From Asterochloris sp. CNOR1 (lineage: Eukaryota; Chlorophyta; Trebouxiophyceae; Trebouxiales; Trebouxiaceae), in the NCBI GenBank assembly GCA_963969365.1, contig OZ017760.1:744001-808000 (forward strand): a stretch of 64,000 nt of DNA. Direction: 5' to 3'. The first letter of the stretch is position 1, and each line of letters begins with the position of its first letter. Shown one piece after another: positions 7,801-63,700 of this stretch. Below the pieces are notes generated by a model that saw only the letters and a program-made list of their open reading frames with translations, was not told the DNA's origin and made no database searches. The position numbers and the translations under genes were made by a program.

Positions 7801-10800
7801 GAAGAGCAGGATGCCTGTTTCGACTCATACCTTGGCCGTAGTCCTGAACATCTTGGGGATGTCTGCCGTGTTGCCCATTGTTGGCAGGTCCTTGGAGAGC
7901 TGGGATTCGGCCTGCAGTGCATGGCAGTTTGCATTGGCAGCCAGCTGCATTGCTCAGGCAGCAGGGTTCAGCAGAAGCTGCCTCAAGCAGGGTTGAGCAA
8001 CCCGTCAGCTGCACAGCAGTGACATCATGACAATCAGGTGGGCCACGCCAAAGCTCCAACGGAGCTCATATCCAGATGTACTAGATTTTGCCTCACAAGC
8101 CGCATCCCTCAGGCAGCAGCATTGTTCAAGCTCTCATCTGCCCCTGATAGGGGACTGACCCAGATTATCAGCTTAGTGTCCGCAGCAACCAGCTATCTCA
8201 TGCAAGCCGAGCCCACCCGCTCGTCAGGTATGTCAAGTCTCAGCTGCCATGCATGTCATCCTTCAGAAGCATGGCCTCACACAGAGCTCCTTGACAGCCC
8301 TGCCTCACCCCAATCACTACAGCCAGCGTCACCACTCCCGATCAGTTCGTACTTATCATCCTGCCAATATGTCTGACAGACTGCCATCCACCAGGGCGCC
8401 CCATAACTCACCATGCTCTCCAGCACCCTGATGTACTTGTCAATGGGGTGCTCCGTGGAGAAGCCTTCAGCAGTCCTGGGCCGACTGCTCCCCCCCTCCT
8501 GTGTGCCATCCTGTGCTGCCCGCGCACTGCCAGCCTGCAATCCACAGGGCAGCATTCATCGAGCCAGTCTGCACTGCGCAACAAGAGTTGCTGCATGCTC
8601 CTGCCAGCTCTGCACTAGCAGGCATGTGTGACCAACCACCTCTGAGCAGAGCTGTAAGTATGTCTTGCAGTACGCAGTGTTTTGCACACCATGATGCCTC
8701 GTGGCCTCTGCGTATGACCTTCTCTGGCAGCTTCCTGCTGTGCCTGACATACAAAGGCTAGTTGCTGCAGGGAGACGGCCAACCTGCACTGAGTGTGCAG
8801 CAGTGGCCCCAGTATGTGGCGCACAACCTGCAAGGACAAGGGCACCCTGGTGACTCCCGCTGCAGCTGCCAACTTACCCCTGCCTCTCCTAGCTGCTGCT
8901 CTAGCCTCTTACACAGTTTGCGTTTCAAAGGAGCCAGCCAGGTGAAGTGGTGAGCAGTACAGCTTGGCGGTACACAGCAAAGCATGCATGACGCCGGCAT
9001 GCAGTCCCTAGCACAATAGCTAGCGGGGTGGCATGCAGTTGCTTTTCACTTTTTGACTGGCCATGGCAAAGCCATACCTTGCAGCCAGCCTGCCTCTGAC
9101 TTGAGTGCTTCCAGCATCAGGCAGGGTCTTTCAGCTCACCTTGATGGCACCCTCTGCAGCTGCCAGCTTGGCCTGTGTGTCCCGCAGCTGCTGCTCCAGG
9201 CGCTGCATGCGCTCAGCTGTGGATATCGTGGCCTCCTCAATGATCTCTGTCAGAGCTTGCAGAGGCATGTTCTGCAGGCAGTGGAAGCAGTGAATGGGCA
9301 TGAGGCACCGGTCATTTGCCTTGTATTGCTCTGCAGGGGCGTGCTCACTAGGGACACTAGTCCTCTCAAAACAGTTCACAGGCAAGCTGGTGGCAGCAGT
9401 GCATAAAATAGAGCAGGTGGGGCGTGCTAGGGCTTACAGATGCCGTTGAGCTGGCGCAGGACCCTCCTTGTGTGAAGGGGCTTAAGGAACACGGAGACCA
9501 CCACCATGATGGCGCAGGTCACCACAGCATAACCTATTGTCGGTCCCGCAGCCTCACCGCTTGGTGACGGAAGAAGGCCACATCATACTGGTCAACAGCC
9601 TAGCGGCACCCCAGCCAGGGAGAATGCCAGCAGCTCTATATGGTGCTGGTCCACCATGCTGCGCACAGCATGTTGCCTTCACACTCAGACAACAGCCCCC
9701 CCGCAACATGCTGCTCCAAGAGCCCTGAAAGCCCACCTCATGGTGCTGCAGCATGCTGCCATAGAAGGCCACATCATACTGGTGCCCGGTCTGGCTGCGC
9801 CCCACCAGGTAGTCTGCCAGTGGCTCCATGCTCCAATCTGCCTTCTGGGCCCTAGCCTCAGCCACGTGCTTGGACAGCCAGGCCACCTGCTGCCCCGTCA
9901 GCATGGCCACCAGGGGCCGTACGTTGACGCTGTCGAGCACCTGCAGGATAGGGTATGGGTGTTGCTGCAGGGTATGCGAGCGGTGCCCTGCAGGGTACTC
10001 ACGTTTGGGCTGGAGAGTGGTCTAGGCTGGTGCCTGGCAGCATACAAAGAGCTCACAGTCCACGTTGTACCACAGCAACCCCCATGTGCAGAGTGGGTAC
10101 ACGCTGCCGGCCTGTCTTCAGCAGCTGTATCCTAACAGCATGTACTGCCACTTAGGCAACAGCACCACAGCATCAAGTGCACCAGCGCCTGGAGATGAAA
10201 ATAGCCAATCAGGGTTGCCTGCACCGAGACAGCATAGCCTCCACATCACCAAGCACAACAACCTTTGCCTGTCAAAAGTCCTGCATGCTGTGGCGCAGGT
10301 CAACAACTCTTGACCCGGCAGCCCACTGCAGCACACTGTGGCTGCAGTGGTGACAATTGTCACACACATCTACACAATGAAGTCCGGCCAAATGAATCCC
10401 TGCCCACCTGCAGGATTCTCTTACGCGGTGCACCCCAGAATTGACTGCATTGGCTAAGTTTCCTTGAATACGGAAAATCACTTTGCCGACGAGTACTGCT
10501 GGTACGCAACCTGCTCCCAAGATGCGCAGGCACCAAACGTCCTGCCCACCTGCAGAATGGCTTCCCGGGTGGTGCGCCCCAGGTTGACCGCCTTGGCCAG
10601 GCAGCCCAGAGCAAAGGGGGCCTCCGAGGCAACGCTTCTGCTCTGGCACTCAGGGCGAGTGCTGGGCTCCCCCAGCAGCATAAGGGCCAGTTCCTGGGCT
10701 GGCCACACCCTGCATGTGGGCATGGATCATAGATGGTTGTGCATGGATTCATGGAACTGCTGCTGATGATTGGCTGCCCACACCCATACTGACTAGCCCA

Positions 10801-13800
10801 AGGCGACATCAAGTCAGGAGGCTTCTGAACCTGTCCAACATGTTGGGCCCGCCAAGATTTATCTTCGGCCCAGAGCCAAGCATAGCAGCAAGGCTTTGTG
10901 GACTACCTTGCCAAGAGGCGATTGCGCCGCACACACAATCCAGGTCAAACTTGTTCAACAATACAGCCAAGACCTTCAAGCTGTTGCCTCACATTAGCAT
11001 AAGGGCGTGGTGCTGACACCCTACCTGAACCTGTCCACAGCCTGCTCCAGCTGAAGCATGCCATCATCCCCAAGGATACGCTCAATCGGATAGGCGCCAA
11101 CCATCAGGCCGTTTAGGTGACGAGCTGGCCGCGGAGTGATGCCTTGGCCACCCTTGAGGGAGCAAGCACCTGCAGTGCCTGAGATGGCCTGCCAATGGGC
11201 CTCCAGCAAGGCAGTCACCTCTGCCTGCAGGCTGGTTAGCTGCAGGGGGCAGAGAGCAAGAAGAGGTCATGCAAGCAGATGAAGATGCCAGCAGAGTGCC
11301 GAGACCCCGACTGCAGGCTGGTCTGCTGCAGTAAACAAGCTTCAGAGAGTGCAGCTGCCATGAGTAGTAGTGCTGCCCATAATGTGGCCTGCAGGGCACT
11401 GGCCTCTGCCAGGACGGCGGTGTGCTGCAGACTGCGGAGGGCTGAAGTGGGGGCTAGCAGCATGGTTGCACAGTCTGCACAAGTGACTTGTGCAGGACGT
11501 GTGGACAACTGCTTGCCAAGCTGAAAGGCTGCTGCCAGCCTGTGCGCGGCTATGCCTGCATTGTGTGTGATGCAGCCTGGCAATCAGCTGCTGAGTGGAT
11601 CAGCTGAAGGCTGCTTTGTCAGCCTGTGAGTGAGTCTGGCTTTGTGTGGGGGGTGCAGCATGGCATCCAGCCTGCTGGGTGGATCGCTTGCCTGGGCATC
11701 GGCCTGGCTGAGCTTGCTGCGGCAGTCTGCCACAGTGGCCTTGAGGGCGGCATTCTGCTCCACCAGGTCATCCTGCAAGGCCCAGCCTTCAGCGGGGCCA
11801 GCTGCATCCTCCGAGTCCTGCGCCAAAATTGAAGGGAGTGCCTGTCTCGGTAGCAGTAAGTTGTAAGGAGCTTCAGCACTTGAGTAAGATGTTGCAGCAG
11901 GATTGGATTGCTGCAGCAGTGTGCACATGTGAGCAATTGACAGCAAGCTAAGCGGATGCTGCAAGCGACTAACACAGAAGGTGCGCAAATCCATGCTACA
12001 TTTGAGAAGAACTCCAACCAACCCTGGGAAATGCACAGCACATGTTGCCATCTCTGTGACGCTCAAGGCACCGTCATAGCAGCCTGAAAAGAGCGAAATC
12101 GGCCAATCACCTCAGTGTGCTCAGCTCTGCTTGCCACTGTGTCAATTGCTTGAGTACCACTGCTATTGCAGAATCCAAGATTGGAAAAGGCTGACCTTGA
12201 GCATTCGCAGGACGCTGTCAACCACCACAGCTGCGCCCCTCAGCCCTGTCTGCACCTCTGCAAAGGGCCGCTCCTCTCCCGCTTCAGCCTGAGGAGCCTG
12301 GTAGCCTAGCCGCATTGTCTGGGACAGGCCTGTAGTCCTATCTTCATCTGCAAAGCAGCAGCTCGTTGACTTCTGGGGCTTCAGGGATCTCCAGCAAGCG
12401 CTGGAAGTTATGCCACATGTGTGGTGGCCTGGGACTCTGCTTCTGCTGCTGCGCTGGCACAAGCTGCAGCAAGATGAGCCAGTTTGACATGTGCTTGCCC
12501 CCTGTACACGCTTGCCATCCCCCTTTTGCCACACAATACACCACATGCCATCCCGCCTGTCACCACACAGTGCACCCATGCCATCCCAGTTGTCATCAGC
12601 TCACCTGCCGGAAGGCGGCTGCCCCCTTCCTCCATTTGCACATGTTGCTGCATGCTGGGCATGGCTTCCATGATGCTTGCCTGCCGACCCAGCATTAGCT
12701 GGTCTCACCTGCCGGCATCTCGCCATCGCCATCCTCTAACCACGCCGTGCTGCTGCGCCTCAGGCTGCTGGGCTGCCGGAGCAACGCTGACTTGCTGCGC
12801 TGCAGCTGCAGGACTTCTGCTGGTGGCTGAACGGGGACCTCCTCCTCTGTTGGAGGGTCTGTCTGGGTGGCAGCGGTCATGATGGGTTTGCCTTGCATTG
12901 CTGCAGGGGATAACCTGCTATTGTTGGTTGCGCACAGCTGCAGCATCCATCCCTTCTGGATACCCAACAGGGATAATAGGCGATGGGAAAAGTGCAGAGC
13001 AGCAAGGCGACCAGACTGCAGTGTGCAGAGAGTTGCTGAGGTTTGCAGTCCAACCTGTGGGGGTATTCAGGGTGGGTTGCAGGTGTAAATCCTGCTGCAA
13101 GGCTGCAGGATGTCAGGACCAAGTGGGCTCCAGTGCTCTTGAGGGGAGGCTGCAGGTAGTCAGGTACCAGCTGCATGGCTACAGAGCGCTGGCCTCAACA
13201 GCAGAGGGAGACAGACCCACCCTGGATCAGTGAGGAGCCATACTTCTGCAACAGAGCCTGCTCATCGCGCTTGCGCGCGACAGCAAGAGCATCGTCAACC
13301 ATCCGGGCTTTTGTCCTGCATGAAAGGCAGATCTCAAACTTGGCTTCTGGGGGGTTGAGAGGAAAGGTAGAAGTGGACATGCGCAGGGATTCTTTTGTCC
13401 TGTCGGTGCTCAGCATCGTGTGGGTTTGCATGGTGGCCTGGGGCTGCACCCTGCAAGGGAAAGCCAGTACTCTACCTGGAGTCAGCTTCTCCTGCAGGAG
13501 ACCGCGCTGCGCATACATCAAAGGCTGTGCACCTGCATGCCTGCCTGGGATGCTTGCACTTCTGCTGGCGTCCCGCCAAACAACATGGCAGTTTGTTTAC
13601 TGCTCCTGTTGGCCGCATGAATGAGGAGTCTAAAACCACCAGCATGAGGGCATTTCACGAAGGAACCTCCTGCGATGTCATCTCATATGCTCGCCTCATC
13701 AAGTCCTCGTGCAGGGCAGCCCGCTGCCCATACAGCAGCTCAATCTCGCTCTTCAGCAGCAACTCCGTGGCATGCTTGTCCAGAGACGCTGACTTCAGCC

Positions 13801-15450
13801 TGCAGACGATAGCGAGGTATGTGAGCCCATCAGCTGCTGCAGTGCATGCCTGCAGGCAACGTGAATGTCTCCTATGGACTGGAGACCGCCTCATAGACAG
13901 CTGCCCTTTTGAAAACAGGCTGGTGATGGAGAAGAACCTGCAGGACACCGGCTACTTGCACCAGGGCTCAAGCATGTCCATCGACGCCACTCGCAGCCTA
14001 TGCAGAGACGCCTGTTTCAGCCTGATCTGCTGGCCACCAGCTGACGCCGCACCATTGGCTAGCTGTGCAAGAGCTCATGCACCATGCAATTGTCAAAAAC
14101 AGAAGCCACAGCAGCACGAGTGGCTGCTGATTCCCCACTCCCAGCTGCTGCAGCACCTGACGAGGTGGTAGCCTTGACACCCCTGCCACGAGCTACAAAT
14201 GCCCTTTGACAGCTGCGACGCTGGGGGCTGACTGTCAGCTAGCCCCACCCTTACTGCTGAAGCATGCAGAAGTCCAGCTGGATGCCAGCTGGCACAACAT
14301 CGCTGATCAGCATGCATGCAGTCCCTCCACCACAGATGCATTGTATACATGGGAGCTGTAGCACTTGGGCTCCCAGTCGTGCAACCCTCCAGCCTGCAAG
14401 CAGCGTTAGCATGCTTATGCCCCCACCCCTCATCACAGCAAAGCGCAGCTGCATGGCACCCAAGCTGCCGCACAGCACAACCATGGGGAATCTTGAGGCA
14501 CTGCACACTTGGCCTGATCTGTCAGGCTGAGCTCGTGCAGCTGGTGCACTGCAGACTCCAGCACCTGCCCATACGACGCCCAGACCTCTGCCAGCAGGGT
14601 GGCACGGTCTTGGCTGTGTGCGCCCACCTGCAAAAGGGCAAGGTGAGACCCTAAAGTGCAGTGTCTAGCACAACTGCGCGCAGGATGCATGTGTTGCTGT
14701 CACCCCACAGGGTGTGGAGGTGTGCTGGCATAGGATGCAACTGGCACCTGCTGGACCAGCATGACCCCAGCAACAGACTTTCGTTGACAGCCCCAACAAC
14801 AAAAAAGTGCAGTACCTGGCGGACCAGCTCGTGAAAGGCCCGCCCATACAGCTCCCGCGCCCTCTCGGCCGCCAGCATGGCCCCCTCCGCTGGTGGCACG
14901 TCTGGGCGCTGCTGCGAGACAATGGAGTTGAAGGCAGCGGTCTCTATCTGCAGGGGAAGATGGGGATAAGCACTGGCAGTGCTTGGAGTTTGTCAACTGC
15001 TGAAATATTTCTGGGCAGGCACACACACACACATACACACACAAAGTGCGCATCAGATGTGCCGCAGCGTATCACGCAGTGTGACAGGCTGCTCTGGCAG
15101 TACTCCAGGTGTCCAACTACCATCACCGTTGACGCACTGCCAGCTGGAAACCCGCGACTGCCTGCTGAGCATGATCAGTGCCCTGTGTGACAGCTCATAC
15201 TGCCAGATAGCCAGTTCCCCAGAAAGCAACACACCCGAGATGATGCCTCTGCACACCTGCAGCCATCTGCTGAGCAGGACAAGCTCCCTGTGCTCTGCTG
15301 GGTGAGTGATGGCGGCCAGAGAGGGCAGGCCCCGCACCTCCTGCCCAGCAGGGATGATGTCACCATGGCGCGGCACGTCCCATATATGCAGGCAGGCGAT
15401 GCAGATGCTGAGCTGATCATCAAAGGGCTGCACGGCCACCATCAGCATAC
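1896..15450 (-). CDS. Large coiled-coil protein with axonemal dynein light-chain-like segment (AXDND1/p28-like)
   Basis: Multi-exon gene; the start lies at or beyond 15450 and is not resolved. 5' exons whose phases chain are 15257-15450, 14816-14947, 14509-14627 and 13667-13799. They encode RARELYGRAFHELVRQ and then RATLLAEVW, the spacing typical of the p28/axonemal dynein light-chain family. The stretch 13.6-10.7 kb holds coiled-coil fragments I could not chain. The 3' half is clean: 10550-10693, 9737-9940, 9140-9271, 8412-8534, 7831-7911, 7381-7545, 7037-7147, 6405-6560, 5725-5838, 4979-5131, 4506-4670, 3465-3818, 2717-2950 and 1896-2108, every one a multiple of three in phase 0. Exons 7381, 7037 and 6405 carry KQPQELADFIFGYF, WKYKWDADCELFLRIL and a degenerate EF-hand-like segment (DEDQEGDIVEYG). 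The tail is rich in RQKS/RQPS motifs that look like basophilic kinase sites, and ends RQKSVRMAL. The dynein-domain call is by pattern only. A ciliary role would imply an alga with flagellate stages. Confidence 0.6.
2410..3822. repeat. Tandem duplication of about 0.7 kb containing a coding exon
   Basis: The segment from 2410 is repeated from 3081 (GCTAGGACATC and downstream). The offset grows to about 750 bp because the second unit has an internal duplication of roughly 75 bp (GCCGCTGCGCACTG near 3120 and 3183). Each unit holds one exon of the minus-strand gene, 2717-2950 and 3465-3818. Both copies keep an acceptor (TGTAG), a donor (GTGAGC), an open frame and phase 0/0, so both can be used together. 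The encoded segments share LARQPSMKVSFNGG and TATSLERQKSSM. Confidence 0.85.
9541..9625 (-). pseudogene. Decayed copy of the 3' part of exon 9737-9940
   Basis: On the + strand 9573-9592 is identical over 20 bases to 9764-9783 inside the real exon, and the flanks align loosely. The minus-strand reading gives QYDVAFFRHQ against HQYDVAFYGS in the exon. It sits in the next intron downstream, just past the donor. A GTGAGG remains near the expected donor but the frame closes soon after. Confidence 0.7.
10390..10460 (-). pseudogene. Decayed copy of the 3' end of exon 10550-10693
   Basis: The + strand CCTGCCCACCTGCAG at 10399-10413 equals 10541-10555, the exon's donor junction. The next 45 bases align with many substitutions (GCGGTGCACCCCAGAATTGA against GGTGGTGCGCCCCAGGTTGA). 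The minus-strand reading is NAVNSGVHRVRESCR against KAVNLGRTTREAILQ. It lies in the intron directly downstream of the real exon. Confidence 0.75.
15019..15043. repeat. (CA)n microsatellite
   Basis: Runs of CA, interrupted once by a T, lie in the intron between exons 15257-15450 and 14816-14947 of the large coiled-coil gene. Confidence 0.9.
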
Positions 15451-16422: not shown

Positions 16423-16487
16423 GGGGCCCTTAACTCAGTGGTAGAGTGTTCGCTTTGCATGCGAAAAGTCCAGAGTTCGATATCTAT
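16423..16487 (+). tRNA. tRNA-Ala(TGC) pseudogene, 3' half decayed
   Basis: The D arm (ACTC/GAGT around AGTGGTA, 16433-16447) and the anticodon arm (TTCGC/GCGAA around TTTGCAT, 16449-16465, anticodon TGC) are perfect. A-box-like and B-box-like (GTTCGAT) sequences are present. The T stem (CAGAG against TCTAT) does not pair, the 5' GGGGCCC has no 3' partner, and no CCA-adjacent end exists. This is a broken tRNA or the head of a tRNA-derived SINE, not a working tRNA. Confidence 0.75.
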
Positions 16488-16522
16488 GCAATTCATTGAG
16501 CTCCTCTGACGGTCCAATCATT

Positions 16523-16630
16523 TTGGCTTCCCCTTGGTGGAGGCAACTATAAGCATTCTTCAAACCACTGGAGGTAGGTTGGCTTCCCCTTGGTGGAGGC
16601 AACTATAAGCATTCTTCACACCACTGGAGG
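16523..16630. repeat. Two tandem 52-bp copies next to the tRNA pseudogene
   Basis: 16523-16574 and 16579-16630 are identical except for one base (CAAACC against CACACC). Each begins TTGGCTTCCCCTTGGTGGAG and ends CCACTGGAGG, with a 4-bp spacer. They start 35 bp after the recognisable tRNA-like head, so head plus tandem body could form one SINE-like element. Confidence 0.85.
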
Positions 16631-17234: not shown

Positions 17235-20200
17235 TCACAGCATGCGCTTCAGGAGGGCTTTGGCGTGAGCCACCAACTCTGGCTTCATGCCTGGGGCAGT
17301 GATGCAGTTGTGTAAGGCCTGGTCGCACCCAGCAGAAGCGAATTCTACCCGATAGTCTGATCTGGAGGCACAGACAGGGGAGCATGTGAGTGTCAGCCGA
17401 CAGCACATCAAACACAGGGCAGTCATGCTTGCCAAAGGAAAGGACCACAAGAGCTGAGACATGGTTTTTAGCTATCAGGGAAGGGCAGCGCAGCAAGCAT
17501 ACCCTGTTGCAAGATGTTCCACAAATGCATGCAGAGGCTCACGGCCCCAGGAGCACCACAATGCGGCACCCACATGCCACCATCAAGTATCGCCAGCAGA
17601 AATCCATGGCATAACAAGGCCCCCAAGGCAACATGACAGGTCTGATAGATGCCAGCCATCAACCCCTGTGCGCACTGTTGCACTGCCCACACAATGCAAG
17701 CAGATCACCGACAACATAGTGCAAAGCCCCCTTGGCAGTCTTGAGACTGCTGCGACCAGCCAAATAAGTACAAGCAAAAACACTTGATGTTCTGTGCAGA
17801 GCCCCCAGGGCAATCTGCAGCAGGTGTCATGAATGCCAAATCTGTTACTATGATGTAGTCCTCTTCAATGCCTGTCAGACCATGCACTTCAAAATGACCC
17901 TGTCAAGGCAGAGCAAGCTCACCTTGATGTAAGGTTGTGCAGGGCCCCCAGGGCAACCTCGCGGCAGGCCTCATGGCTGCCAGCCAGCAGAGACACCAGC
18001 GGCGGGATGGCTCCTGCGCGCACTATCTGCACCTCTATTTCATCATTCACAGCCAGGCTGCGTAGGGCTCCCGCAGCAGCCTCTTTGCCTGCATGATCGA
18101 AACCATCTCGTCAGAAAGTGAGGGCAGGCAAAGCAACGCTGCTGGGTGTGTGCAGCAGCCTCTTTCCTGCACGGCATGGGACCAGCAGGGGTGACACCTA
18201 GTATCTGGCTGGTCCATACTATTGATGAGCTGAGCAGCACAGCATCTGACTCAACACACAGCAAGGCAGGGCCAACAATCCTGTACAGGCAGGCGTGCCT
18301 GAAGCTACATAAGTTCTGAGGCTCCACAGCTAGAGAAGCACAGAAAGCGCATGAGACACAAGCATAGCACACAAATAGGCAGGCTTTTAGCCAACACGAG
18401 GATGCCTGCATAACGCCACATATGTGCCCAGCTGAGGCAGCTAAACCAGCGTGGAGACTGCCACTGAGACGAGCCGGCAGATCCCCGCATTTGACCTTTG
18501 CCAGCAAAAATGGAAGAAGCCAGACCAACTCCTCATATGGCAAAGTTGCATCAGCACATGACATGCCATATAGACCAGCAGGCAGCTGACCAGCAGGTGC
18601 CAAGAACAGGTTATCCCAAGAAGGCCCTTGTCAGCAAAGTAGGAGACCCCCGCCCACCTCCAAATGTGCCATAGCTGAGAAGCTGCACTAGCGCGGGCAC
18701 CGCCCCTGCATTGGCGATGGCCACCTTGTTTTGGGAGTTGTAGGTGCTCATGTTCCAGAAGGCTCGCGCAGAAGCCTCCTTGGCATCGTCTGGGCCGCCC
18801 CACAGCAGCTGCGTCAGGGGCCCAATGGCACCAGACTGCAAGGCAGCACACTCACCATTGGAGGTTTATGTGGAGAAGGGCTATGTCGCAAAGCAGGTGA
18901 GGCATGGCAGAAGACCTCTTTGAACAGGTGATCCAAGGTGGGTGCAGGACCCAGGGCTGCTGGTAGCAGACAAATCTCTCAACCACAGCAATGCTGTTGG
19001 GAACCTGATCTGATCTGATGAGTGGTTGAACTCCAGGTAAGTCCCACAAAACTGACAGTAACAGGCAGCCAGCAGACCAGGATGCTTCTCCTTGCATCCT
19101 GAGCAGGTGCAGCCTCGCCGGCAGCATCCATCATGCTTGAGCTGAGCACAGTTTGCAGTGCTGCAGCATGTCACCTGTCTGCACCAGCCTCACCTGTGAG
19201 ATGGCGTGAGTGTTGTCGTCGTCACGTGCCATGAACCACAGCGCCCGCGCAGCAGCGGTGCGGCTGCCATCAGGCATGCCGCTCCCCAGCTGGTCCACCA
19301 GGACGGCGATGCCGCCACACTCCCTGCAGGGCCGCAGCATCATGTTGACAACGGCTGGGGTGGGGTGGTCAGCAGAGACTCTGCAATGGTGCAAGTCAGG
19401 TCTGAGAGCCGCTGCACAGCTGGCAGGCCCACGCAGCAATGCTGCCACACAGCCTACAGGGCAGCAACAGAGGCCGAGGCAATTGGTGCCATGCGCACTC
19501 CATGTCAGGGTCATCTTGTATCCAATCCAGGCACACTGCCTGTGAGGTGATACAGGGTTGGGGTCCCTACAGCAGAACCTATGGTGCAGCCCTGACTCGG
19601 CAGCGGCACCCTCAAGGACCTTTCTTAGACAGCCCTTGTTGTGTCCCTTTTGGCATGGATCCCACGAGCTGCCTCACAGATCACAAAGGTGTGCATGTGG
19701 CATGCCCCTGCATGTCTGCGCCCTCACACCTCTGCTTAGATGCCATCACAGCCCACCGGCACCGAAGTCCTTTTCACAGTAGCCCACCTGACAGCCACCC
19801 TGGCGGCCGAGTCTGCATCCACCATCTCCCCAATCCTCCTGGTGGCTGCCTCCACGGCCTGGGGCGCCGTCTTGCCCCGAGCAGCCTGGCTGAGCAGTGT
19901 GATGAGACCCACCACATCGTCGGGAAGCGGAGGGGGCACTGTGTCCAGCAGCTCACTTGAGTTGCACCTGCATAGTATGACGCAAATGAAATGATAAAGA
20001 TTGCAAGACAAGGGTGGCTTTGCTTATTGTGCGCCTGAGGGGCACACTACGGTCTGGCCTGGCTGAGCAGCGGGTTTCAAGCCACAACAGCACCTGGCAG
20101 GGGAAGAGGCAGCGCGACCAGTATTGAACTCCATTGCTGCCTGACTGCATCACATTTGCATGTGAGTCTCAGCACTGCATGTGCAGCCTGGCGCCTTGCA

Positions 20201-23200
20201 TCACATCCTCAGCCAGGCAATTAGTTTTCTGCTGAAGCACGCAGCGGCTGGACAGCTGGGCAGCAAGCTCCCTAAGCCAAGCAAGTCCCAAGCAGGGCCT
20301 TTTGAGCAGTAAGGTGAGCGCATGTATACCTCCAGGCAAGTGCTACGTGGGACTCTCCAGCAGGATTCCTGCACAGAAGGAGCCAGAGAAGGCCTCAATT
20401 CCACCTGCTCATCGTGCTTATGCAGCATGCTGGGCACCTCCTCCAGTGCCAATCAGCGCCCCACCGGGTCATCATCCATGAGCGGGAGGGGAGCCTGCAA
20501 GTTGCCCACCTGCTGAGCGAATCGCTCTCCAGCACGCTGGGCATCTCCTCGGCCGCCGAGCTCTGCTCACGCGCCATGGCCACATTGCGCTCTGCCAGCG
20601 CCGCCAAGCTGATGTTGTGCTGGCGGCACCAGTTCTCGATGGCGTGCTTCAGGTTGTAGTTGGGGATCATGCGCTTGTTCAGCAACACCCGTCCTGCAGC
20701 AGAGATGGTGTCCTTTTCGATTGTTTGTGGTTTATGTTCTGCGACCTGCAGATTTACATAGCTTCACTGCTTGCTTGTGAACATGGTCATGCACAGCAGC
20801 AGGGCTTTGTGCCCCAGTCACAGGCTGCCACTGGGTCATCTGCTTTATGTAGCGGCTACCCTGCAGGGTAAGCAATGGCAGTGTGCATTTTGGAAGACAA
20901 ACACAGCCTGGTGAGCCTCAATGCCGGTCCATGCACCCGGGTGGGCACCCCCCTATGATATCTCTGCTGCAGGCAGAATCATGCTGCATGCTGCTGACTC
21001 ATTGAGGCCACCCTCCCAGCATTACCGCAGCCACGACATCTCCCAGAAGGAGGAATATTTGGTTTCTGCAACTTGCAGCCCTACCGACCGAGCAGCCTGA
21101 GCATGTAAGGCGCACAAAGGTGCCAAACTCATTGCATGCAGTTTGCTTGTCCATGCTCTGCCAGGCCCCAATTAGGCAGGGTCTCATCTCACACGCATAC
21201 TGCTGCCCAACATTGCTGCCAGCTCAACGGAGAGAAAAGTGAAAGGCCGCACCAACACTCCAGCATGCACCAGGCCGCACCTGAGAGTGGGCAGATCTCG
21301 TTCCCGCAGGCAAAGTGCTGCTCGATGCTGCTGCGGTCATAGTTCATAGCTGTCTCAATCATGATGACTGGGTCCGTCATGATGTCCAGGGAGATGGGGC
21401 ACAGGAACTCCTCAGGGACTGGGGGCATCTCCCTGCAGCCATCAGAAGAGATTCATCAAGCAGCAGAGGGAGGCATGCAGACTTGACCCGGTACACGCAG
21501 CCCTGTATCTCAGCAGCTCGGCTGTGCAAGCCTGCACCAGCATCAGAGCAAGGGCATTGTCAGCAGTGATCTCCAGGGAGGTGGGGGCACAGGCACTCTC
21601 CAGGGGGCCACCTCCCTGCACGTTTGAAGAGCAGTTGCTCAGTGTCATCACCTTACATGCTAGCAGGGTGCTTGCAGTTATGCAGGGTGTCTCAATGCGC
21701 AGGCGAGGGGGACCACATTCGCCATCACAGCCTCAGAGATGTGTTGGGCTGGTGCCATCACAGTGGTGTAGCGCACAATAGCAAGACAGGATGCAGACGA
21801 ATACAGGTGTCTCATGAGGCAGGGTCAGCAGCAGGGCGTAATACAACCAAGGCAACAGGAGATGGGGTTGCCTCCAGTCGTATCAATCGCAACTGCCTCC
21901 ATTTGCAAAGCTGCTGCTGCTGACACTGGACCAGTTTGCAGGGCACAGCTCAGTTGAAACGACTGGCATAGGCCAAGCAATAGCCACAGGGTATTTGACA
22001 CATCACAGATTCCCATTCTGCTGGTAATGATGAGGCAGCACGAAACCAGCCTGTAATACAATCTCTGGTGTCCAACCACCCAGACCATGGGTGCAGCAAC
22101 CACAAAAGCCAATCCCAGTCTGGCACTGCAGCGTTCGCTGCGCAGCACCTGGAAACATGAATGCAGCCGACGCACACCTGCTGCTGCTGACGCTGGACTG
22201 TCCGGCATGGCGGGGACCAATGGACTCAGCTGCCACAGGGCGAGCGATGCCCTCAAGTGTTTGCAGGATCTGGGTCCAGAAGAAGTGGGGGGCTGTGTCG
22301 GTGGCCTGCCGGCTGAGCGAAGCCTCAGAACGCACATCATCTAGCTCTGTGTCGAGCTCCTGCTGCACCTGGGGGATGCCTGTGTTGCTGAGGCCTGCGG
22401 ATGCACAGAGGGTTGTCCGGCATGCAGGAAGACGTGGGCCAAATTCCAGGTTCAGAACTCCCTGCATTGCGGGAACCGCCACCGCTGAGGCCTGTAAGAG
22501 GGCAGACATTTGCTGACTTCTGCAGTGGCATACTACTCCAGCTCTGCTGGAGGGCTGCGGCTTCTGGGGCCAGACTCGTGAGCGGGAGGGCTTGTGAGTA
22601 GGGCAGCAAAAACCACATCTCCACATCACAGAAACGCGCAAAGAGGGGGCAATACTGCTGGCTGCCAAAAGTTGAACTGCATGCTGCAGCGCCTGCTGCG
22701 GCAGCAGCAGCTGCAGTGTGCAGCCTCCAGCACCAACTGGCAGGCAGGGAAACAGGGAGGCACAGCACTGACCTGCATGCTGTAACACTTGTTGAAGCAG
22801 CAGGCGCAGGCGGCCAGTTGAGGCTGCAGTGCCCGCTCCTCCCGATGCCTCCTGGAGCCTCTGTACCTCCGCCTGTATGAGGGACGACAGCTCCCAGTTC
22901 TGCTTGGCCACCTGCAGGCAGAAGCAACAGTGGCATTGGGAGGTGAAAGGGGGCCCAGCTCTGTGAGTTGTCACCCTGAAAACCACTGCTCTAGTGTGCA
23001 GAGGCTCACGTTTCCAAATGCTGAGTGCATGACACACAGGCCAGTCACTGCAGAGCATGCACTACAGATGCGCACCAACCTGGGGCGCCACTCAACCATG
23101 TAGCACTATTTACCTCGGATCCATTGCACAGACTGCCAGGCAGCTTTAGGCACTTTGGATTGCAGCATCCTGTGCTACAGAGCCACCGCCCTGTTTGCCA

Positions 23201-30724: not shown

Positions 30725-33700
30725 TCACCACTCATGCCAGTCATGGTCCATAGTTCTGAGCCCAGTGTCCAGCTTGTCAAGCTGTGCCTGCAGCATCGAT
30801 GGGATATGCTGGGCTCTGGAGGTAAGCACCATTGGAGGTAAGCACCATTGAAATTCCGGTGCCCTGAAGGGGCAAAGGATGATCCGGTAGGCGCTGCACG
30901 GGCCCAGCTGGATATATGAGACATGCGAGGATGGCTCACCTTGACATCATGTGGTAGGTTCCACTCAAACATGCCCTCGATGTTACTGCGGATGTTTTCT
31001 GGAGTCTCTGACCGTGGAATCACGGCCACACCACGCTGGATGTTCCACTTGAGCGCAACCTGCATCAGGGATGCTATTGTGCAGAAGCTGCCGCGGGTGG
31101 CCTGGCACGCAGCATGCCCCGTGTGCCTTGATATTGTCCCAGTAAGACACCCTCAGAGCTTGCAGGTGTCTCAACACAGCCGCAGCTGCTGATCTCCAAG
31201 GTGAATTGTCTGCATCTCATCACAGAGTCGATGCCAAGGTTTCCATCTGCATCTCGACGCCTTGCTCACTTGTGGGCCCTGACACCCCTCCTACTAGGTG
31301 CACACTACTCACTCCTAAGGACACAAGAATCAGTTCTGAGCACACCTCTGGAGCAGACCCTGGGAGACCACTGAGCACATAGGCAAGAACTGCCGCCCAT
31401 TGCCCATAGACGCATTACCCTGAAAACATAGGCTGCGGGCTGTGCCATCATTGAGGCAGGCATGGACAACTTGACACCTGTTGCAAGGCACACAGACCAG
31501 CATGGTCTTGGACCCATGTGGATGCCCACATGGGGTTGCAATCCCCTCAATGCAGGCCACCCTTCAAGCAGGCTCACTATCAATGTACCAAAAGGCCTGG
31601 GTGAAGGTGCCACACCCACCTGGGCAGCCGTCTTGCCAGTCTGCTCGGCCGCCTGCTGCACCCCAGGGGCTGTCAGCACGTCGCCCTTTCCGTGGCCAAG
31701 AGGCGAGTGGGCCACACAGTGCACGCCCTGCAGCGCCATCTGGGACTATTGGGATAGCTCAATCATGGAGGAGGTTTGTGCACTCCAGAACAGCAACACT
31801 GTCCGGCTTTAGCGTGGCCTCTTTGAGGCTTGCACAAAAGAAATTCTGTCTGCGACCTTATCCACCTTTATCCCCTGCAGTGCTGGGCAGGGGATCACCA
31901 GGTACAGGCCTTGTCTTGTGGGCTGCAGTCGACATCTGGGGCCTCCTGAAGATGCCTCCGTGATCAGCGGCAGCTAACTCAGTAAGGGGCTTGCATGCAG
32001 CCCACCAGGACAGCTGGCAGAGCAGACCGGCCTAACAGAAGCCAGCACTGCAGTACTGGCCTTTGAAGCTGCATTCACTATCACCACAGGGGGTTACACA
32101 CCGCCAGGCAGGCTGCAGCTGGAGGCTTTCCTGCTTGAGGATGCAAGCTGACCTTACGCAAGCAACTGCCCAGAGGCTGCCATGGGACAGCAGCGAGTGC
32201 ATCTTGGACAAGTCCACAGCAAACACTTCACTGCAGGCTGTTTGGACCCTGCTCACCTGGCGCAGCTAAGTGCCCACGCACTTCCATTGGGACAGCACAA
32301 GGTGCAGCTCTCTTTACAGCGAATCATCTCACTCAGGCTCTTGATGGACTTCTCACTGTTCGCGAGCAGGTGCCCACCAGCGGACGGCGGGGCCAGCAGG
32401 GCTGCAGCTCAACCTGATGCGCATTGCCCTTCAGCTTGCCAGGGACCATGCCCACCTGCCTGGGTGCCACCTAGCCTTGTGCAGGAGAGTCAAGCACGCG
32501 CAGGGCAGGGACGGCTCACCTTCCGCAGGCAGGTGCCCACAAGCTTCCGTTGCGAGAGCAGCGGGTGCAGCTCAACCTGGTTCACCACCGGCTTCACTCT
32601 TGCCTGCGCCAGCAGGTCCTCCACCTGCTGCAGGTTGAAGTTGCTCACTCCAATATAGCGCACCAGCCCCTCATCTACAAGGGCCTCCATCGCCCGCCTG
32701 CAGAGGCATGGATGCTCAGGCTGTTCTCATGCACAGGTGGGCAGTGTGTGCAGCAGGTGGAACAAGGGAGCCACACAGCAGGCCAGCATGCCCACAGACA
32801 CACCCAATGCTGCAGGACATATGACCCCAACACGATGGTAGTGCTGCTCTAGAGCGCTGTGCCAGCCCAGCTTTTGACGCCGTTGACGTCTGGTCTACGA
32901 CGTCAGCCCTCAAAAAAATTCGTCTGGGGCGCTTACCAGGTGTCCAGGATCGTCACGGTGTTGTCTGGCTCCTTGTCTGAGCCGGGCATCCACGCGTCTG
33001 GCCAGTGCATGAGAAAAATATCCAAGTACTCACAGCCCAGATCCTTGATAGACTGCTGGCAGGATGCCCTGAAGAGGGCAAGGACCCATTAAATTGTTGA
33101 CATGGGGGCTATGGGCCTTCAGGCCTCTGGCATGAGGGTCGAGAATGTGCGAATCGTTTTCAGCTCAGGGCTCAAGGTTCTGCACAGGTTGTTGGGGGCC
33201 AGCATGGGGAAGAGGGATTGCTCTGATCTTGTGACGTGTCACCTTATGCAGAATGCAGCCAAGAACAGCTGCCTGTGCATTGACGGCAGGCTCATGCATC
33301 GCCTGCCAGCCCACAGCTGACATGTTGCGGCTCGACCCGGGAAGGCGTCAGCATCTGTGAACACAAGGGAGGTGGCAGCCCCGCACCTGACTGCATCAGG
33401 CCTGTGGGCATCGTTCCAGACCTTGCTGGTGATGAATAGCCGCTGGCGCTTGCCCTGCTGCATCTCCTCTTGCAACCCCTCTCCCACCAGTGCCTCATTG
33501 CCATACGAGGCTGCAGGCACAATGTTGGTTCACATCAGTAGAGGTGCCAAAGGGAAGACGAACACAGTAAACAGCAGCAGGGGCAGCAGCACTTCAAGCA
33601 GTGTCCCAGTGCCATGCGAGGGGTGCAAGCACAACAGAGCGTGCTGGCAGCACACTTCATCACCATGCATAATTGTCACGTGGTGCAGGCATTGAAAAGG

Positions 33701-49331: not shown

Positions 49332-49628
49332 CTACTACCCTATACATTGTGTATTTCACATGAGCTGTGGCTTATGCTAACAACTGTTCTCAAGGACGCA
49401 AGCAGCCACTAACACATCAAAGATGCAGCAACACATCAATTGGCAACGCATCCTTGCAAGTTGTCGATGTTCATGCTGCCCTTGCTCAGTTGAAGCTGCC
49501 CTGCTTGCTTCATTTGCCAGTTCACTGCACGACTACTTGAGCGAATGGTTTTATTCTGGAACTTGCAGTTCAAGGCACTAAAGTTGTGAGACTCGCTGAT
49601 CAAAGGCCACAAGACATGCTAGCGAGCT

Positions 49629-54622: not shown

Positions 54623-54796
54623 TCCAGGTATGATGCGTGCTCAAGTGAGGCTGCATGCCACATTACGAGCGATGTACATGCAGAGGCGTGACACACTCAA
54701 CTGTATCATCGCCAGATGATGATGTCCGACGTTGGGCAGATTATTGATTAGTAATTTTGAGGTGAGTGAGGGGGTCAGAGCAAGACAATGTGGTTG

Positions 54797-54923
54797 TGGA
54801 CCAGGAGCAGTAAGCAATGCGTCACATGTTGGACTCTCAGAGTGTTTGGGAACGCAACAGATGTACTTGTGACCAGGAGCAGTGAGCAATGTGTCACATG
54901 TTGGACTGTCAGAGGTTTTGGGA
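54797..54923. repeat. Two tandem copies, about 55 bp each at 72-bp spacing
   Basis: ACCAGGAGCAGTAAGCAATG at 54800 and ACCAGGAGCAGTGAGCAATG at 54872 each continue with GTCACATGTTGGACT and a GTTTGGGA or TTTTGGGA end. The repeat lies between the stop of the beta-helix gene and the start of the GT90 gene, both minus strand. It could belong to the 3' UTR of the first or the promoter of the second. Confidence 0.8.
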
Positions 54924-54939
54924 TCAAAATAGAGGTCTT

Positions 54940-56777: not shown

Positions 56778-57742
56778 CTGCAGGCATTTGCTCTTAGTTT
56801 TGTCAATGTCTGGGACTCCCAGAACCCAGACCTGGCAGTGATCTTCAAGCCACCTGTTTCTCAGCGTGCTCCTGCGCCCAGGCATTGCCTGACTTCCAAG
56901 CTGGCACGAGCAGTAGTGTCTGCAATAGCTGCCTCCGGTGCACAGCTGCCAGCTGCTGCATGCCGGAAGCATGTCGAGGCAGATGTTGTTGTTGACTGGC
57001 CCCACCTGCCGCAGACCTGCTGCCACAATGACACTTTAGCAGGATCATGTGGGGCAGAGGCCTCGTCTACAAGCGGCAGAGGTCTCAAGAGCGTTCGACT
57101 CTCATTCTGGTCACAAGGCACTTGAATGACTGCTATTTGCCCTCACAAGCACAAGAGGACGTTCAGCCCAGGATAACAGGGGCAGCCGTAACGTACATAC
57201 AATCTGATAGTCATGCTGGTCTTGGATTGCTCCCAGAAATGCACCACCGATCGTTGCAGAGACCGCTGGAAGGTTGCGCCGGCCAGCCTGGAACAGAGGC
57301 GATCAGCTGCCAGCAATCCCTTACACTGTCATCGGCATCCTGAGCACCAGCCTGATACCAAACTGCCCTTCACAAGGTTGCCAGATCATGAAAGGTACTG
57401 CATAGCCACAGACGACTGGCAAAGGCCTGCACCATCTGCGGTGACAAGCTGGGCAAGGTCCATGCCTCGCTGCCAACAGGCAAGCTGGCCGTTATATTGG
57501 GATCTCTTATGTTATGCAACATACACCTACACACACAGACATGGCTGCTGCAGGGGTACCAAAATAGCTGGCAGCAGCCAGGAGCTTCCCAGGCCTCAGT
57601 CATCTGCTGCAAACGGCTGCAAGCCTGAGCAGAGAAGGCAAGCAGCAGCAGCGTAGCTGCATAGCCGCCTCAGCCCCGCTCAATGCTCACACAACCAGCT
57701 GACGCCCGCAGCGTCAGCTGCTGACTCTCCAACACAGACTCA

Positions 57743-60700
57743 ATGCGAAGTGCTGGGCACTCACGTACAGCTCAACCTTGGCTGATGACAAGGCCGCCCA
57801 GAGCCCCGGCACAGCTGGAGAGGAGTGTGTGGGGGGCTTGGTGCCTGGCCCTGGCTCTGTGTGCCCGCTTAAGCTCAGCTCAAATCGGAGAAGCTGCGGC
57901 TCCCCTGCTGCAGCCTGTGCCTGCTGTACAGCCCAGCAGCGCGGGCTCCAGCTGTCCCATCTCCATCGAGTATGCAGTCAAGTGAGCGTGTTGTTTAAGT
58001 TCCCATGCTGCACAGGCAAAGCTGCCTGCCACAGTATGCAGCACCTGCGCTGGTCCGCAGCCCCCTGCACACCAAGAGGCCACAGTCTCTTCTGTTCAGG
58101 ACAGCATGGGGGCCGGAACCTTTAGTCCCAAGATCAGCAGGATGCTTGTCTTCAGCTGTTTGAGCCTAGGCTGCCTTGTGTTGTTCTGGGGAAAGCTTGC
58201 AGGCTGCAGAGGAAACATGTACGACCAGATCCAGGGTGGTTGCAACCACCAGTCAAGACCAGGTCAGGAGATACCTGAGAGGGGCATGACGCAGGATCAT
58301 CCCCGGGTGGAACAGAGGCCCCATGCTGCATATAGCCAAGACTGAACTGCAGTGAAATGCTCTGATGGTCGGCCTCTCACCGGTTGCAGTCTGGGGGCTC
58401 CTCAGGCAGGGGATGACGGCACCAACTCTGGCGTCCCCATCTTCTTTGGGAGCATTGGCATCCTGAACAATGGAAACGTAAGCTGCGGTGCCTCCTTTGC
58501 CAGGCTGTCAAGGCGCACCTGGGTGATGCAAGTGCCCACAGGATGGCAAGCTGTCAGCCTTGCAGCGGCGTCCAACAACCAGATTTCCACCAGTTTGGCC
58601 AGACCAGCCCGCGCTGTCTTGTGCACCTGCACGGGCCCCTCCCAACTGCACACGATGCACTTCACTTCAAGGCTGCACAGGCTGCCACAGACTGCCTGCA
58701 GGCTGTCCCCAGGCTGCAAGTTCCCCTTTGGCACGTCCTTGCTGCTGCTACTACTCCTGCTGCTGGCAAAATCGCATGTTTCTTTCCACCCAAAGTCTGC
58801 ACATGCTGTTCCTGCAGACCATCTGCTGGGGTTCGCTTGCATGGGTGATGCACAAGCTGCCCACAAGCTGACAGCATGTGATGTTGTGCTGTGCAGGACA
58901 CACTGGAAAGCTGGCAGTTGGGCTTTGACTTCCAGGAAGGGGAGGTCATTCAGACGACGAATGACTATTTTGACACCTCCAATGGCAGCCTGCTGCTGCC
59001 AGCGTGTGCCAACCAGCGGGAGGTGGAGCTGCAGAGCGCACTCCCGCCAGCCTCGCAGCAGGCTGTGGCTGCTGGTGTTCTCGTGCCAGGGCAGGTGAGC
59101 AGCCAGGGATCAGCATGCGCAGCAGGTACCATTATGGGGCATGCTGCAGCTTGGCATTACAAGCTTGAGGGTTGCGACACCATTAGAGCAGCTAGAAAGG
59201 GCCACATTCAGCTAAAAATTGAAGCTGCAGAGCGCAGTGCCGTCATTCTCACAGGAAGCTGTGGCCGCGGGCGCCCCTTGCCTCAGAGCAGATGACAGCA
59301 GTGTCTGGCATGGTCAGGCCTGCAAATAGAGCTTGCTACAGATTGTCAAGGAGGGCTGCAGGGTGCACAGCCACCCACATGAAAGTGAGCTGCGGCTGCT
59401 GTTGTGCTGGCAATATACACCTTCAAGAAGGGCAGCGCGTAAGCTGTGGCTACCGCTATCGTCAGATCCCTGGCAGACAGGATTCAGCATGGCAGAGACC
59501 CAGCTGGGGCTTGCTGCAGCTCAGCACAGGAGATTTGACAAAGTTGAGTGACATGTCGAGAGGGAATAAGGCAGGCTGTAAGGCAAAAGCTTGCCTCTCG
59601 CTCGGCACTGGCCAGGTCTCATGTGCAGAGGGCAGACTTACTCAGTCATGCTGCACGACGTGCAGGACAGGACAGTGCAGTTCATTGGCACGAAGAAGAC
59701 AGGCAACGCCACTGACCCCAGCAGTGATGTCAGGGTGGCCCCCGTCCAGGTATGCTGCACCTGCAGCCTCAAGGATTCCCTTCTGTGACTCTTCATTGAT
59801 GTGAGACTGCAAGTGAAACAGGCGCACATGGCCTTTGGCTCCTGCTTTCTCCTGCAGGCTCTGCTGCCTTGCCTTGTCTTCCCAGGCTGCTGCTTGTGCT
59901 TTGCTCTCCCTCATCACCATGATGACGACATGTCTCTGTACAAATGTACTGCTCTGGCATCCATATGCATGTGTGACCCTCTGTCAGGCCGACCCAGCTA
60001 AGGCTGCTGCTGTGTCATCAGCTGGCTCCATTGAGGGCAGCCACTCGTCATCCCTGCACTCTTGTGCAAATGCAGTGCTGAATGCTGCCAGGCCCAGCAC
60101 AAGCTGTTGGGAGCTGCTGGCCGTCCATCAGGATGTTTCCACTGTCTGCTCCTGACTGCACATGCATATTTGAGCACACCAAGTATGCTGCGCCAGGCCA
60201 AGCACCAGACGCCAGACCCGCTGTCGGCGGGCAGCCTGGCAGACAGCTCGAAGCCCACAGCTCCTCATGCTCTGCAGAATGTCACATTCAACAGCATCCC
60301 CTGCTTCTCCAGCCTGCCAGGACTGGAGGGTGCCCCTGCACCCTCCCCTGAGACTGAGCAGCCTGCCATGGCGGCCTTTTATAACTCCTCGCAGTCCGTC
60401 TCAGATGGCCTTTTCATTCAGTACACACCGGTGAGAACAACTTGCAGATGCTCCAGGTCACATGTGTAGAGACTGCCGTGCCCTGGCAGCTACTTTTGAC
60501 CCCATGCGGGCAGCCTGCATATTCAGCATAGCGACTTTGCAGAGACCTGCCTTGCCCTGATAGCCAAGCTCAGCCCCACACACAGTGGGAGCTTGTGGTG
60601 AGCGGAATCTTTCGGCGCACGACTGTGGTTGCCAATGCACAAGTGGTCAAACTTCTGCTCCCGTCTCACCATTGGTCAAAACCCTGCAAAGAGGCAAGTT

Positions 60701-63700
60701 GGCTGCCCTAGCAACAATGGAATACCCCCGCAATCAAGCCTCTGCACGCACCTCACTTACAGGGCCCTGTGCAGGTAGAGTACACCGGACTCCCAGCAGG
60801 CACACCCTCCTTCACTCAGATGCTGATCAGGTAAGGTTCCCCGTAGCTGTTGCGACCGACAGTGTCCTGCTTGGCTGGTTTGGGCACCTCACTGCTTGCG
60901 TAGGCATCAGAGTGCTTAACGGCTGTTGCGTTCCCACTGACTTATTTCAGTGGAAGAGCCACTCAATCATGATAGAGCTGTGCTGATGCAGGCTGACAAA
61001 TCTGGGGGATCACAATGTGTTGCTCTCAAATGTCACGTTAGGCTACTGGTTCAATGGGCCCCAGCAGAGCCAGCCGGACACTCAGCAGTACCAGGCTGTT
61101 TGCAGTGATGCCACGCCAGGTGTGCCTGCATGCCTTCAGATGGTGTGAGCGGCACGCCTGCTGCACCATGCGTGAACGCCTCTGTCAACATGAGCAGCAG
61201 ATAGCTGGTCAGGCTGTTCAGCCCAGTGGCGGATCCGGCCTGGGCAGCCCACACCAGCATCAAGAAGCTTGCCAGGCTGCAGGCCAGCTCGGCTGTTGTT
61301 GACCTGTCACAGTGTCACAGTGCAGGCCTCTTGCTTCACCCTGCGGTCTGCGTGTTGCCCAGACGACGCTGTTACCCAGCTCCAAGCTGCCCAAGTAGCT
61401 CGCCAGGCTTTTAGTCCCACGGTCTGCCTGCAGGCCAACAATGTCACTGCCCATGTCAGTGCAACCTCATAGCAGGCTTCAAGCCCCACATACTGCCTGC
61501 ACCCTCAGTAGACTGCCAGCATCTGCGCCGTCTGACCCCAGGCTCTGGAAAATCAGATCAGGTGCCGGCGACATAGATTCAAGGCACCTGGCCAGCACAT
61601 GTCCCACCCCCTGGCTGGTTGCCTGTAGGCTGCCCCAACATCACAGCTGGCATCAGTGCTGTCCAGCTTCAGGCTGTGGGAGCCCGCTTCCTTATGACCA
61701 TTGGCTTCAGTAATCTGGCTGGCACATTGCTCACATCTTCAACGGCAGCCCTCAGCAACCCCAGCACAGCCTCCAGCAGCAACCAAGGCCCTCTGGTGAG
61801 CAGCGTGGAGCTGCTGATCCTACTCCAGAGCAGGCAGTTCCTGGTCAACATGAGCAGCCAGCTAGATTATTCTTACATTGATGCCCCCAGGTGAGGTGCT
61901 GCATGGAGCAGCTGTTCTGGCCTGCAGGTTAAGCACGGCTGTGACGGGTGCAGCTCGCTGCTGTTGGTCACCCCCCGCCCCCAGTGCTGCAGAAGTTATG
62001 AGCTTCATGCTGCAGCAGCCCTGTCCTGGGCAGGAGGCACTGCCCAGTCTGCCTGCTGCGGCTGCAGGGCTGCTGCTACTTCTCAGGTTTTAATTGCAGC
62101 TGAGACCATAGACCATGTGCTGCCGCAAGAAAACCTGTGCAAACTGGAGACACTGACATGTCTGCCTGTCACTGTGGCTACAGGCCTGTGGCTGCCCCCA
62201 GCCCCAGCACTGCAGAGAATGCGAACTCCATCAATATCATCCCCCGCATTGCTGTGGCCAACCCCAAGCTTGTGGCTTATGAAGCCGGACAGGTGGTTTG
62301 GGGGGCGGCACCTGTCCTGGTAGGCCCTGCCACCATTTATCTTGATATGCAGGCTCTTTTGCAGCAGGCTCCGGCACCCAATCTGGGTGGCAGGCAACGA
62401 TGATGCAGGCTTCTGACCGCTTTTGTGGGCAAAGCTTGACCTTACATCAGCAGCAATGCGGTGCCCTTTTGATGACGTGTTGCCTTCCATGCCACTGCAT
62501 GCAACAACCCTACAATTCAAGCACGCCAGCAACCTGTGTGCCCAGCTGATGTGCCACTGCGCAAAGCCAATATTGCATGCACAGATCCTGCTGTTGTGAC
62601 TCTGCAGGTGCCTTTGGCTGCAGCTCCTGCCCAGCAGCCTGCCTCTAACTCCAGCCTGCCTCCAGGCATCTCCTGCCAGGGCTCAGGGTCTGATCAGGTG
62701 TGCGCCTCTCGTGCAGTCAGGCTTGATGTGCCTGACTTCAGGCTTCTTGTGCTGTGCCAGCCCAATCAGTCTTGATGCGCTGTGCACACAGCGTTCATTT
62801 ATGATACACCTGTGGAGCATCAGCTCTATGCTGGAAGGATGCCATTGTTTTTGAACTTGTTGCGGTGCAACACACCAGGGCACTGCCTTGCAGGTGTGCG
62901 GTGTGTCTGTGACCTACTGCTGCGCGCCACCGGCAGGGCAGGAAGTCCCTTCCACCATCCCTGTGCCAGGACCTGCATCTGCACCAGGCCCAGCAGTGGC
63001 TGCGCTGCCTCACCTGCCTGTGCTGGCACCCATCGCAACAGCACAACCCGCGTCAATGTCTTCTGCTCCTGAGGCCCCTAGGTAAACTGCTGTGTTGGGC
63101 TTGCAGCGGGTATGTGTCTAAGCGGGCACTTTGTCACCTCCAGCGTCAGCAGCGCTGCAGGCAACTGCCCTGTTTGGGCGCCTCACATCCCCAGCGGAGC
63201 CGCCGGCCTGCTTTTGGTGTGGTCTGATGCTCAGGTCCTGAGGTGCTTCAGTTGCCCCACCTGCTGTGTGGGTGCCTGTTGTGACAGCACTCTCTATATC
63301 CTCTCCTAAGGTCCCCAGGTGACCTCCCTTGCCTTTGCGAGTTGGTGTCATTTGCTTGGATGTGGTCATCAGGCAAGACAGTGGTGGCTTGTGAGGCCTC
63401 CACTTGCAACTCAGCTGGTGCTGCTGATCAGGCTTCAGTCATTGCTGAGGGTACCTCACTCATGGACTGAAAATTCTGCAGATGACCATCATGCTGCATC
63501 TCTAGCCTGTGGGCTGCCTTGCTGCTCCTTTTGGCCGCTGTCTTGACGTCAAGGTCTGACCTGCTAATTAGGTAGCCCTGCGGCTGCTGCAGTCCGCATT
63601 TGAGTTCCCCATCTGGCAAGGGCAATGCTAAAGCAGGCCCCGCTACTGGGAATCTTGGGGCACAATCGTCCAGCAGCAGTCTGGGAGCGGGGGCTATCGC

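Follow-up and report, generated by a model that had tools for sequence, protein, structure and literature searches.

Decayed copies of exon ends in introns of Asterochloris sp. CNOR1 and their probable origin by short tandem duplications

The window studied here, a 64-kb stretch of contig OZ017760.1 (positions 744,001–808,000) from the green alga Asterochloris sp. CNOR1, carries intron-rich genes that include predicted genes for an aldo/keto reductase (AKR) and a U-box/armadillo-repeat protein, and introns of these genes hold degenerate copies of the ends of their own exons. We analysed the window together with 26 further stretches of 10 kb (L002–L027; 27 loci in total), which between them sample every one of the 18 chromosome-size contigs (1.99–4.47 Mb) of a genome that comprises 56.38 Mb in 21 contigs. 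The GC content of the window lies between 0.52 and 0.62 in 2-kb steps. For the lichen alga Asterochloris glomerata, the published description gives a genome of 56 Mb, a GC content of 56–62% over 98% of the nuclear genome, 9 introns per gene, and organelle genomes of 110,932 bases (mitochondrion) and 217,546 bases (chloroplast) (PMC6652019).

Genes were modelled with a custom two-strand exon/intron finder that was trained on long open reading frames, starting from generic splice matrices, with 8 of the 26 stretches kept out of training as a held-out set. The initial settings returned approximately 1,700–2,000 exons, mostly tiny; they were dropped and the penalty was raised. After training, the splice matrices read CAG|GTGAG at donors (about one in ten being GC donors) and CTGCAG|G at acceptors, and 407 introns were predicted in the window and 18 stretches. 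GC donors are common in this genome, as 26 of 263 confident introns in the window and L002–L027 start with GC and 237 start with GT. The models fuse genes in the window (one chain has 68 exons), which leaves the exons usable and the gene counts not, and the predicted introns may contain some intergenic gaps and missed exons. Pfam matches at E ≤ 0.001 in 8 of 10 gene pieces support the models. Six of these exceed the curated cut-off (CG-1, aldo/keto reductase, U-box/ARM, 3'-5' exonuclease, Spore_III_AA/AAA and PAP2), the beta-helix and CBM_3 matches fall below it, and two pieces have no match at all. Two open frames are unusually long for an intron-rich genome, L002 4512–7962 on the minus strand (1150 codons) and L014 3224–5714 on the plus strand (830 codons), and may be mobile-element genes. 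Our evidence throughout is the sequence of one genome with predicted splice sites.

A junction was tested when its exon scored at least 8 and measured at least 50 bp and its intron measured at least 150 bp. The exon end (60 bp of exon plus 25 bp of intron) was aligned to its own intron, with swapped (other) introns, order-2 Markov introns and the reverse complement of the same introns serving as controls. With the window and all stretches combined, a copy of the own exon end in direct orientation was found at 80 of 522 junctions (77 of 345 introns), where about 5 junctions are expected by chance. This bears out the original prediction, made from the letters of the window, that introns beside exons hold degenerate copies of exon ends. 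In the window and 18 stretches, matches at p ≤ 0.01 against swapped introns occurred at 36 of 205 donors and 33 of 205 acceptors (2 expected for each); these 69 of 410 junctions compare with about 4 expected from swapped introns and with 5 of 410 in the reverse complement (4 donors, 1 acceptor). At scores of at least 35 we observed 22 donors and 23 acceptors with their own introns, 1 and 0 with the reverse complement, and about 0.1 each with swapped or Markov introns. The held-out stretches behaved likewise, with matches at 17 of 112 junctions, 3 in the reverse complement and approximately 1.1 expected. The window alone gave 29 matches in 82 tested introns, and the pattern extends beyond it across the chromosomes, with copies at 21 of the 27 loci and none at 6. 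Decayed exon-end copies are thus confirmed as real and widespread in this genome, affecting about one in five tested introns. One intron (1 donor of 205) carries its exon end in inverted orientation, at a score of at least 60, which is the sole reverse-complement match at or above 35 among the 410 junctions.

Carriers of copies make up 7 of 85 introns of 150–250 bp, 16 of 105 of 250–400 bp, 33 of 89 of 400–600 bp and 21 of 66 of at least 600 bp, and the median intron length is 478 bp with copies versus 327 bp without. The greater length of copy-bearing introns fits growth, yet it is also favoured by the additional room for matches.

Matches are concentrated at exon ends, next to the junctions. 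For introns no shorter than 430 bp in the window and 18 stretches, we profiled 50-bp windows around the junction. Those whose start lies 30–50 bp short of the exon edge matched their own intron in 17–26% of cases (40/188 for the exon end), compared with 0–2.7% of those starting 100–150 bp inside the exon and 1–3% (7 of 376) of those starting 100–150 bp inside the intron. A separate scan of interiors found matches in 15 of 376 cases for introns and, against the exon sequence that follows, in 11 of 244 cases for exons, the chance expectation being 1.6%. The alignment crosses the exon/intron junction in 57 of the 80 matches; the further claim that each copy includes the junction was too strong as stated, since 23 of 80 do not. 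Similarity by chance or low complexity in CTG/CAG-rich introns, or by repeated protein domains such as ARM, could draw on the very common CTGCAG and CAGCAG words of the window and on the exon-interior matches just given. It is contradicted by all three controls (of which the held-out set had the swapped introns and the reverse complement), by the alignments that cross the border, and by the unrelated nature of the genes involved (CG-1, AKR, U-box/ARM and PAP2), and we regard it as negligible.

Mismatches between copies and exons fall at codon positions 1, 2 and 3 of the exon in a ratio of 118/121/161, and of the 96 gaps in copies, 68 measure 1 bp and only 7 are multiples of three while 89 are not. 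These near-even mismatches and mostly 1-bp gaps suggest that the copies decay as non-coding DNA, with the changes in the exon itself probably falling mostly at third positions. The splice dinucleotides GT and AG are retained in copies about as well as adjacent bases. A function maintained by selection, be it as alternative exons, mutually exclusive exons, decoy splice sites or regulators of splicing, would accord with the good splice motifs retained in some copies, such as AG|GTGAGC in AKR copy 2; the codon-position, gap and dinucleotide profiles all speak against such a role, which we consider highly improbable. Tandem exon duplication (PMC9013439) likewise yields adjacent copies of exon sequence. 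The copies described here are incomplete and evolve like non-coding DNA, and the reading frame and coding constraint of tandem (alternative) exon duplication are absent from them, given the near-even mismatches and the 89 of 96 gaps that break the frame.

Serial copies at one boundary, also predicted, are present at 19 junctions with at least two copies each (score 26; about 0.02 expected per junction under the null). The predicted rise of divergence with distance from the exon holds as a trend, since period and identity are negatively correlated (Spearman −0.51, n = 52 copies of at least 30 bp). It does not hold case by case, because the nearest copy scores best at only 13 of the 19 multi-copy junctions and the three AKR copies at 32.1–32.4 kb, spaced 100–105 bp apart, are 80, 77 and 78% identical without falling off by distance. 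The case at 17.6–17.9 kb, one of those originally noticed, was recovered with both of its donor-side copies (Table 1). At the two ends of the originally predicted range the outcome was mixed: near 9541 an identical piece of 21 bp was found that does not span the junction, and at 61520 there was no match at p ≤ 0.01 among those listed for the nearest junction. We also considered the AKR copies as an exact 106-bp array, which is ruled out by their shifts of 163, 263 and 368 bp.

Table 1. Exons and exon-end copies in the window (positions of the 64-kb stretch)
Feature	Position	Strand	Details
AKR exon, source of three donor-side copies	32520..32697	-	predicted exon; Pfam Aldo_ket_red, E 2.1e-53
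AKR copy 1	32346..32416	-	55/69 bp; shift 163 bp from source; donor reads AGTGAG
AKR copy 2	32251..32310	-	46/60 bp; shift 263; donor AG|GTGAGC still readable (AGGTGAGC)
AKR copy 3	32147..32204	-	45/58 bp; shift 368; donor now AG|GTCAGC (AGGTCAGC)
U-box/armadillo-repeat exon, both ends copied	17923..18088	-	predicted exon; Pfam Arm and U-box on gene piece
Donor-side copy, exon 17923-18088	17783..17838	-	48/55 bp
Farther donor-side copy, same end of exon 17923-18088	17615..17654	-	32/40 bp
Acceptor-side copy, exon 17923-18088	18152..18171	-	20/20 aligned bp, one gap
Acceptor-side copy, start of exon 21281-21432	21567..21620	-	87%
Acceptor-side copy, start of exon 19194-19323	19408..19469	-	81%
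Donor-side copy, end of exon 10550-10709	10399..10454	-	83%; CTGCAG|GTGGGCA retained
Donor-side copy, end of exon 9140-9271	8843..8904	-	79%
Identical piece of exon 9737-9940 in downstream intron	9572..9592	-	21/21 bp; junction not spanned
Acceptor-side copy, start of exon 11025-11239	11288..11331	-	83%
Donor-side copy, end of exon 20510-20693	20392..20443	-	88%
Tandem array across GC donor of exon 764-918 (Pfam PAP2 gene piece)	888..998	+	37-bp period, 3.0 copies
Donor-side copy, end of exon 58897-59094	59231..59299	+	76%

A scan for local duplications returned 135 pairs. Of the pairs with at least 93% identity, 8 of 11 lie within 15 bp of abutting, examples being L013 545–744 (68-bp unit, three copies), L019 3221–3293 (33 bp) and positions 16523–16630 of the window (56 bp). 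When alignments were relaxed for the 24 best matches they often extended until the source met the copy, an extension made without a control, and the boundary copies in L008 and L005 (87–89%) abut under the same relaxed, uncontrolled alignment. An anchored test measured the similarity beyond the first alignment in the 78 matches with room for it. Similarity runs on into the intron with z of 3.6 for donors and 6.3 for acceptors, and in the direction away from the intron z is 0.7 for acceptors; an earlier unanchored version, now superseded, gave approximately 2.6 and 4.0 into the intron and 1.5 and 0.1 away from it for donors and acceptors. Abutting young pairs and similarity that continues into the intron are as tandem duplication predicts.

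Other repeats were observed in the same sequence. A 33-bp unit is present in 2.5 copies (80%) at 12505–12587 of the window, in the intron before the predicted minus-strand exon 12196–12347. A tRNA-like sequence at 16424–16479 on the plus strand (Rfam RF00005, 31.7 bits with a cut-off of 29; ARAGORN finds none) adjoins the 56-bp tandem duplication at 16523–16630, which is 98% identical and contains GGAGGTAGG. In L012, approximately 6221–6609 and 6622–6995 form a tandem duplication of about 400 bp that includes coding sequence of predicted exons (86–95% in pieces).

Sorted by identity (at least 0.93, 0.88–0.93, 0.83–0.88 and lower), the pairs that involve exon sequence number 3, 17, 18 and 40 (78 in total), those outside predicted exons number 6, 12, 16 and 16 (50 in total, 49 of them in predicted introns), and those within exons only number 2, 0, 3 and 2. 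The boundary share of boundary plus interior pairs climbs with divergence from 3/9 through 17/29 and 18/34 to 40/56, with an overall share of 0.61 and 0.25 interior pairs per kb. Boundary copies would dominate the readable set because in such a pair one member, the exon, is held under constraint, while in an interior duplication both members decay. We compared these figures with forward simulations of duplication. Position-blind duplication at a constant rate, combined with exon conservation, failed as an explanation for the whole pattern, as it gave 0.18–0.51 in the interior versus 0.14–0.48 at junctions and the data show 0.01–0.04 versus approximately 0.2. Constant-rate runs also produced an excess of young boundary pairs (37/136 and 14/41 versus 3/78 observed), with the exception of one low-rate run (2/22). 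The scarcity of young pairs suggests that the duplication rate fell over time. A position-blind run with an older burst and a unit of about 65 bp gave a boundary share of 0.64 and 0.21 interior pairs per kb, close to the observed values.

Duplication might alternatively be targeted to boundaries, with breaks or slippage focused where exon meets intron, for instance on CTGCAG/CAGG motifs or on structures linked to transcription, and introns would then grow from their edges. The drop in match rate from the exon end to 100–150 bp inside the intron is indeed steeper than in position-blind runs, and a tenfold boundary bias combined with an older burst gives 0.021–0.030 at that depth, near the data. 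The interior pairs are, however, too frequent for a strong bias, as tenfold bias yields 0.05–0.10 per kb, and at a constant rate the same bias overproduces young boundary pairs (34.5 per 580 introns versus 3). Interior pairs that stem from missed exons may really be boundary pairs, which would raise the bias and weaken the objection from interior counts. On the strength of these simulations we conclude that strong boundary targeting would be neither needed nor favoured, that a moderate bias is possible, and that growth from targeted boundaries is an unlikely account, though the most probable of the alternatives.

The explanation that we consider best, and probably correct, is that introns here lengthened by short tandem duplications, not necessarily targeted to boundaries, at a rate that was higher in the past. 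Short tandem duplications would arise along genes, with clear abutting units of about 25–120 bp and some near 400 bp, and those inside an exon would mostly be removed by selection. A duplication across a splice site would create two sites; with the outer one in use, the message would remain unchanged and the intron would become one unit longer. The inner copy, consisting of exon end and splice site, would then decay as non-coding DNA, and repeated events would leave several copies at one junction. The original prediction had proposed that introns lengthen by repeated tandem duplication of their boundaries. Its tandem mechanism is favoured by direct local copies and non-coding decay, and the boundary as a target is not required, since 50 pairs lie outside exons compared with 78 that involve them and position-blind simulations skewed towards old events come near that split.

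Several observations weigh against this explanation. The AKR copies are 100–105 bp apart, yet copy 1 sits 163 bp from the exon, and pairs below 93% identity abut in only 13 of 124 cases under strict alignment. Donor-side similarity rises in the direction away from the intron as well (z 2.5), perhaps due to the test window ending at 60 bp of exon. The simulation parameters were set by hand and not fitted, and the older-burst run with units of about 65 bp gives 0.063–0.068 at 100–150 bp inside the intron versus 7/376 observed and 0.146 at the exon end versus 40/188. Taken over units of 65–75 bp, older-burst runs give 0.04–0.07 deep in the intron (observed 7/376, or 15/376 in the separate scan) and 0.12–0.18 at the exon end (40/188).

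Tandem duplication as a type of mutation is known; here it would act on intron length. Short insertions in human indel work include tandem duplications that are alike in mutation type and roughly in size; in the present case they are read through exon-end fossils at high density. Gao and Lynch (PNAS, 2009) reportedly described internal gene duplications, some of them across exon-intron borders. The copies reported here differ in being partial, decayed and sometimes serial, in occurring in 77 of 345 introns of a single genome, and in being read as intron lengthening. The genome paper on Chlorella variabilis NC64A may mention exon-derived repeats in introns, in which case the novelty would be lower.

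A literature search on the pattern found no description among the titles and openings of abstracts listed, with most subscription papers outside its reach, and the accessible portions of the Coccomyxa genome paper (PMC3446292), the Trebouxia A48 paper (PMC12712428) and a review of intron evolution (PMC3488318) contain no such pattern. Tandem genomic duplication is treated as a route of intron gain in PMC3443670, in whose accessible text the term "intron length" is absent. The two processes share a short tandem duplication within a gene, doubled splice motifs and a choice by the spliceosome that can preserve the coding sequence; in intron gain a new intron is born in an exon, while here an existing intron lengthens. 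The copies might be what remains of introns born when an exonic AGGT segment was duplicated in tandem, the same class of mutation (PMC3443670), or of mobile introners, the subject of PMC9860276. In the signature of such a birth, the end of exon 1 resembles the end of the intron and the start of the intron resembles the start of exon 2. Requiring at least 16 identities out of 30 in both tests, we found it in 0 of 262 introns (0.4 expected by chance), a result that leaves very old, decayed births aside. Matches to the own intron exceed those to swapped introns, which argues against a dispersed family, although whole-intron families were not searched for. We rate this origin as improbable in the extreme, slightly below a functional role for the copies.

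In annotation, decayed copies whose splice motifs are still readable are a potential source of error for gene prediction and spliced alignment. A wider proposition, which we put forward as a doubtful one, is that introns in this lineage built most of their sequence themselves, by serial tandem duplication of their own neighbourhood with a preference for splice boundaries. This would have happened in an earlier burst, now slowed, and exon-end fossils would record the growth of single introns. The lengthening of introns is rarely observable because neutral intron sequence loses its own history. A constrained exon provides a nearly unmutated reference, against which single growth events become identifiable, countable and perhaps orderable within one genome. 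This opens the way to direct tests of how fast and when introns grew, and of what doubled splice sites do.

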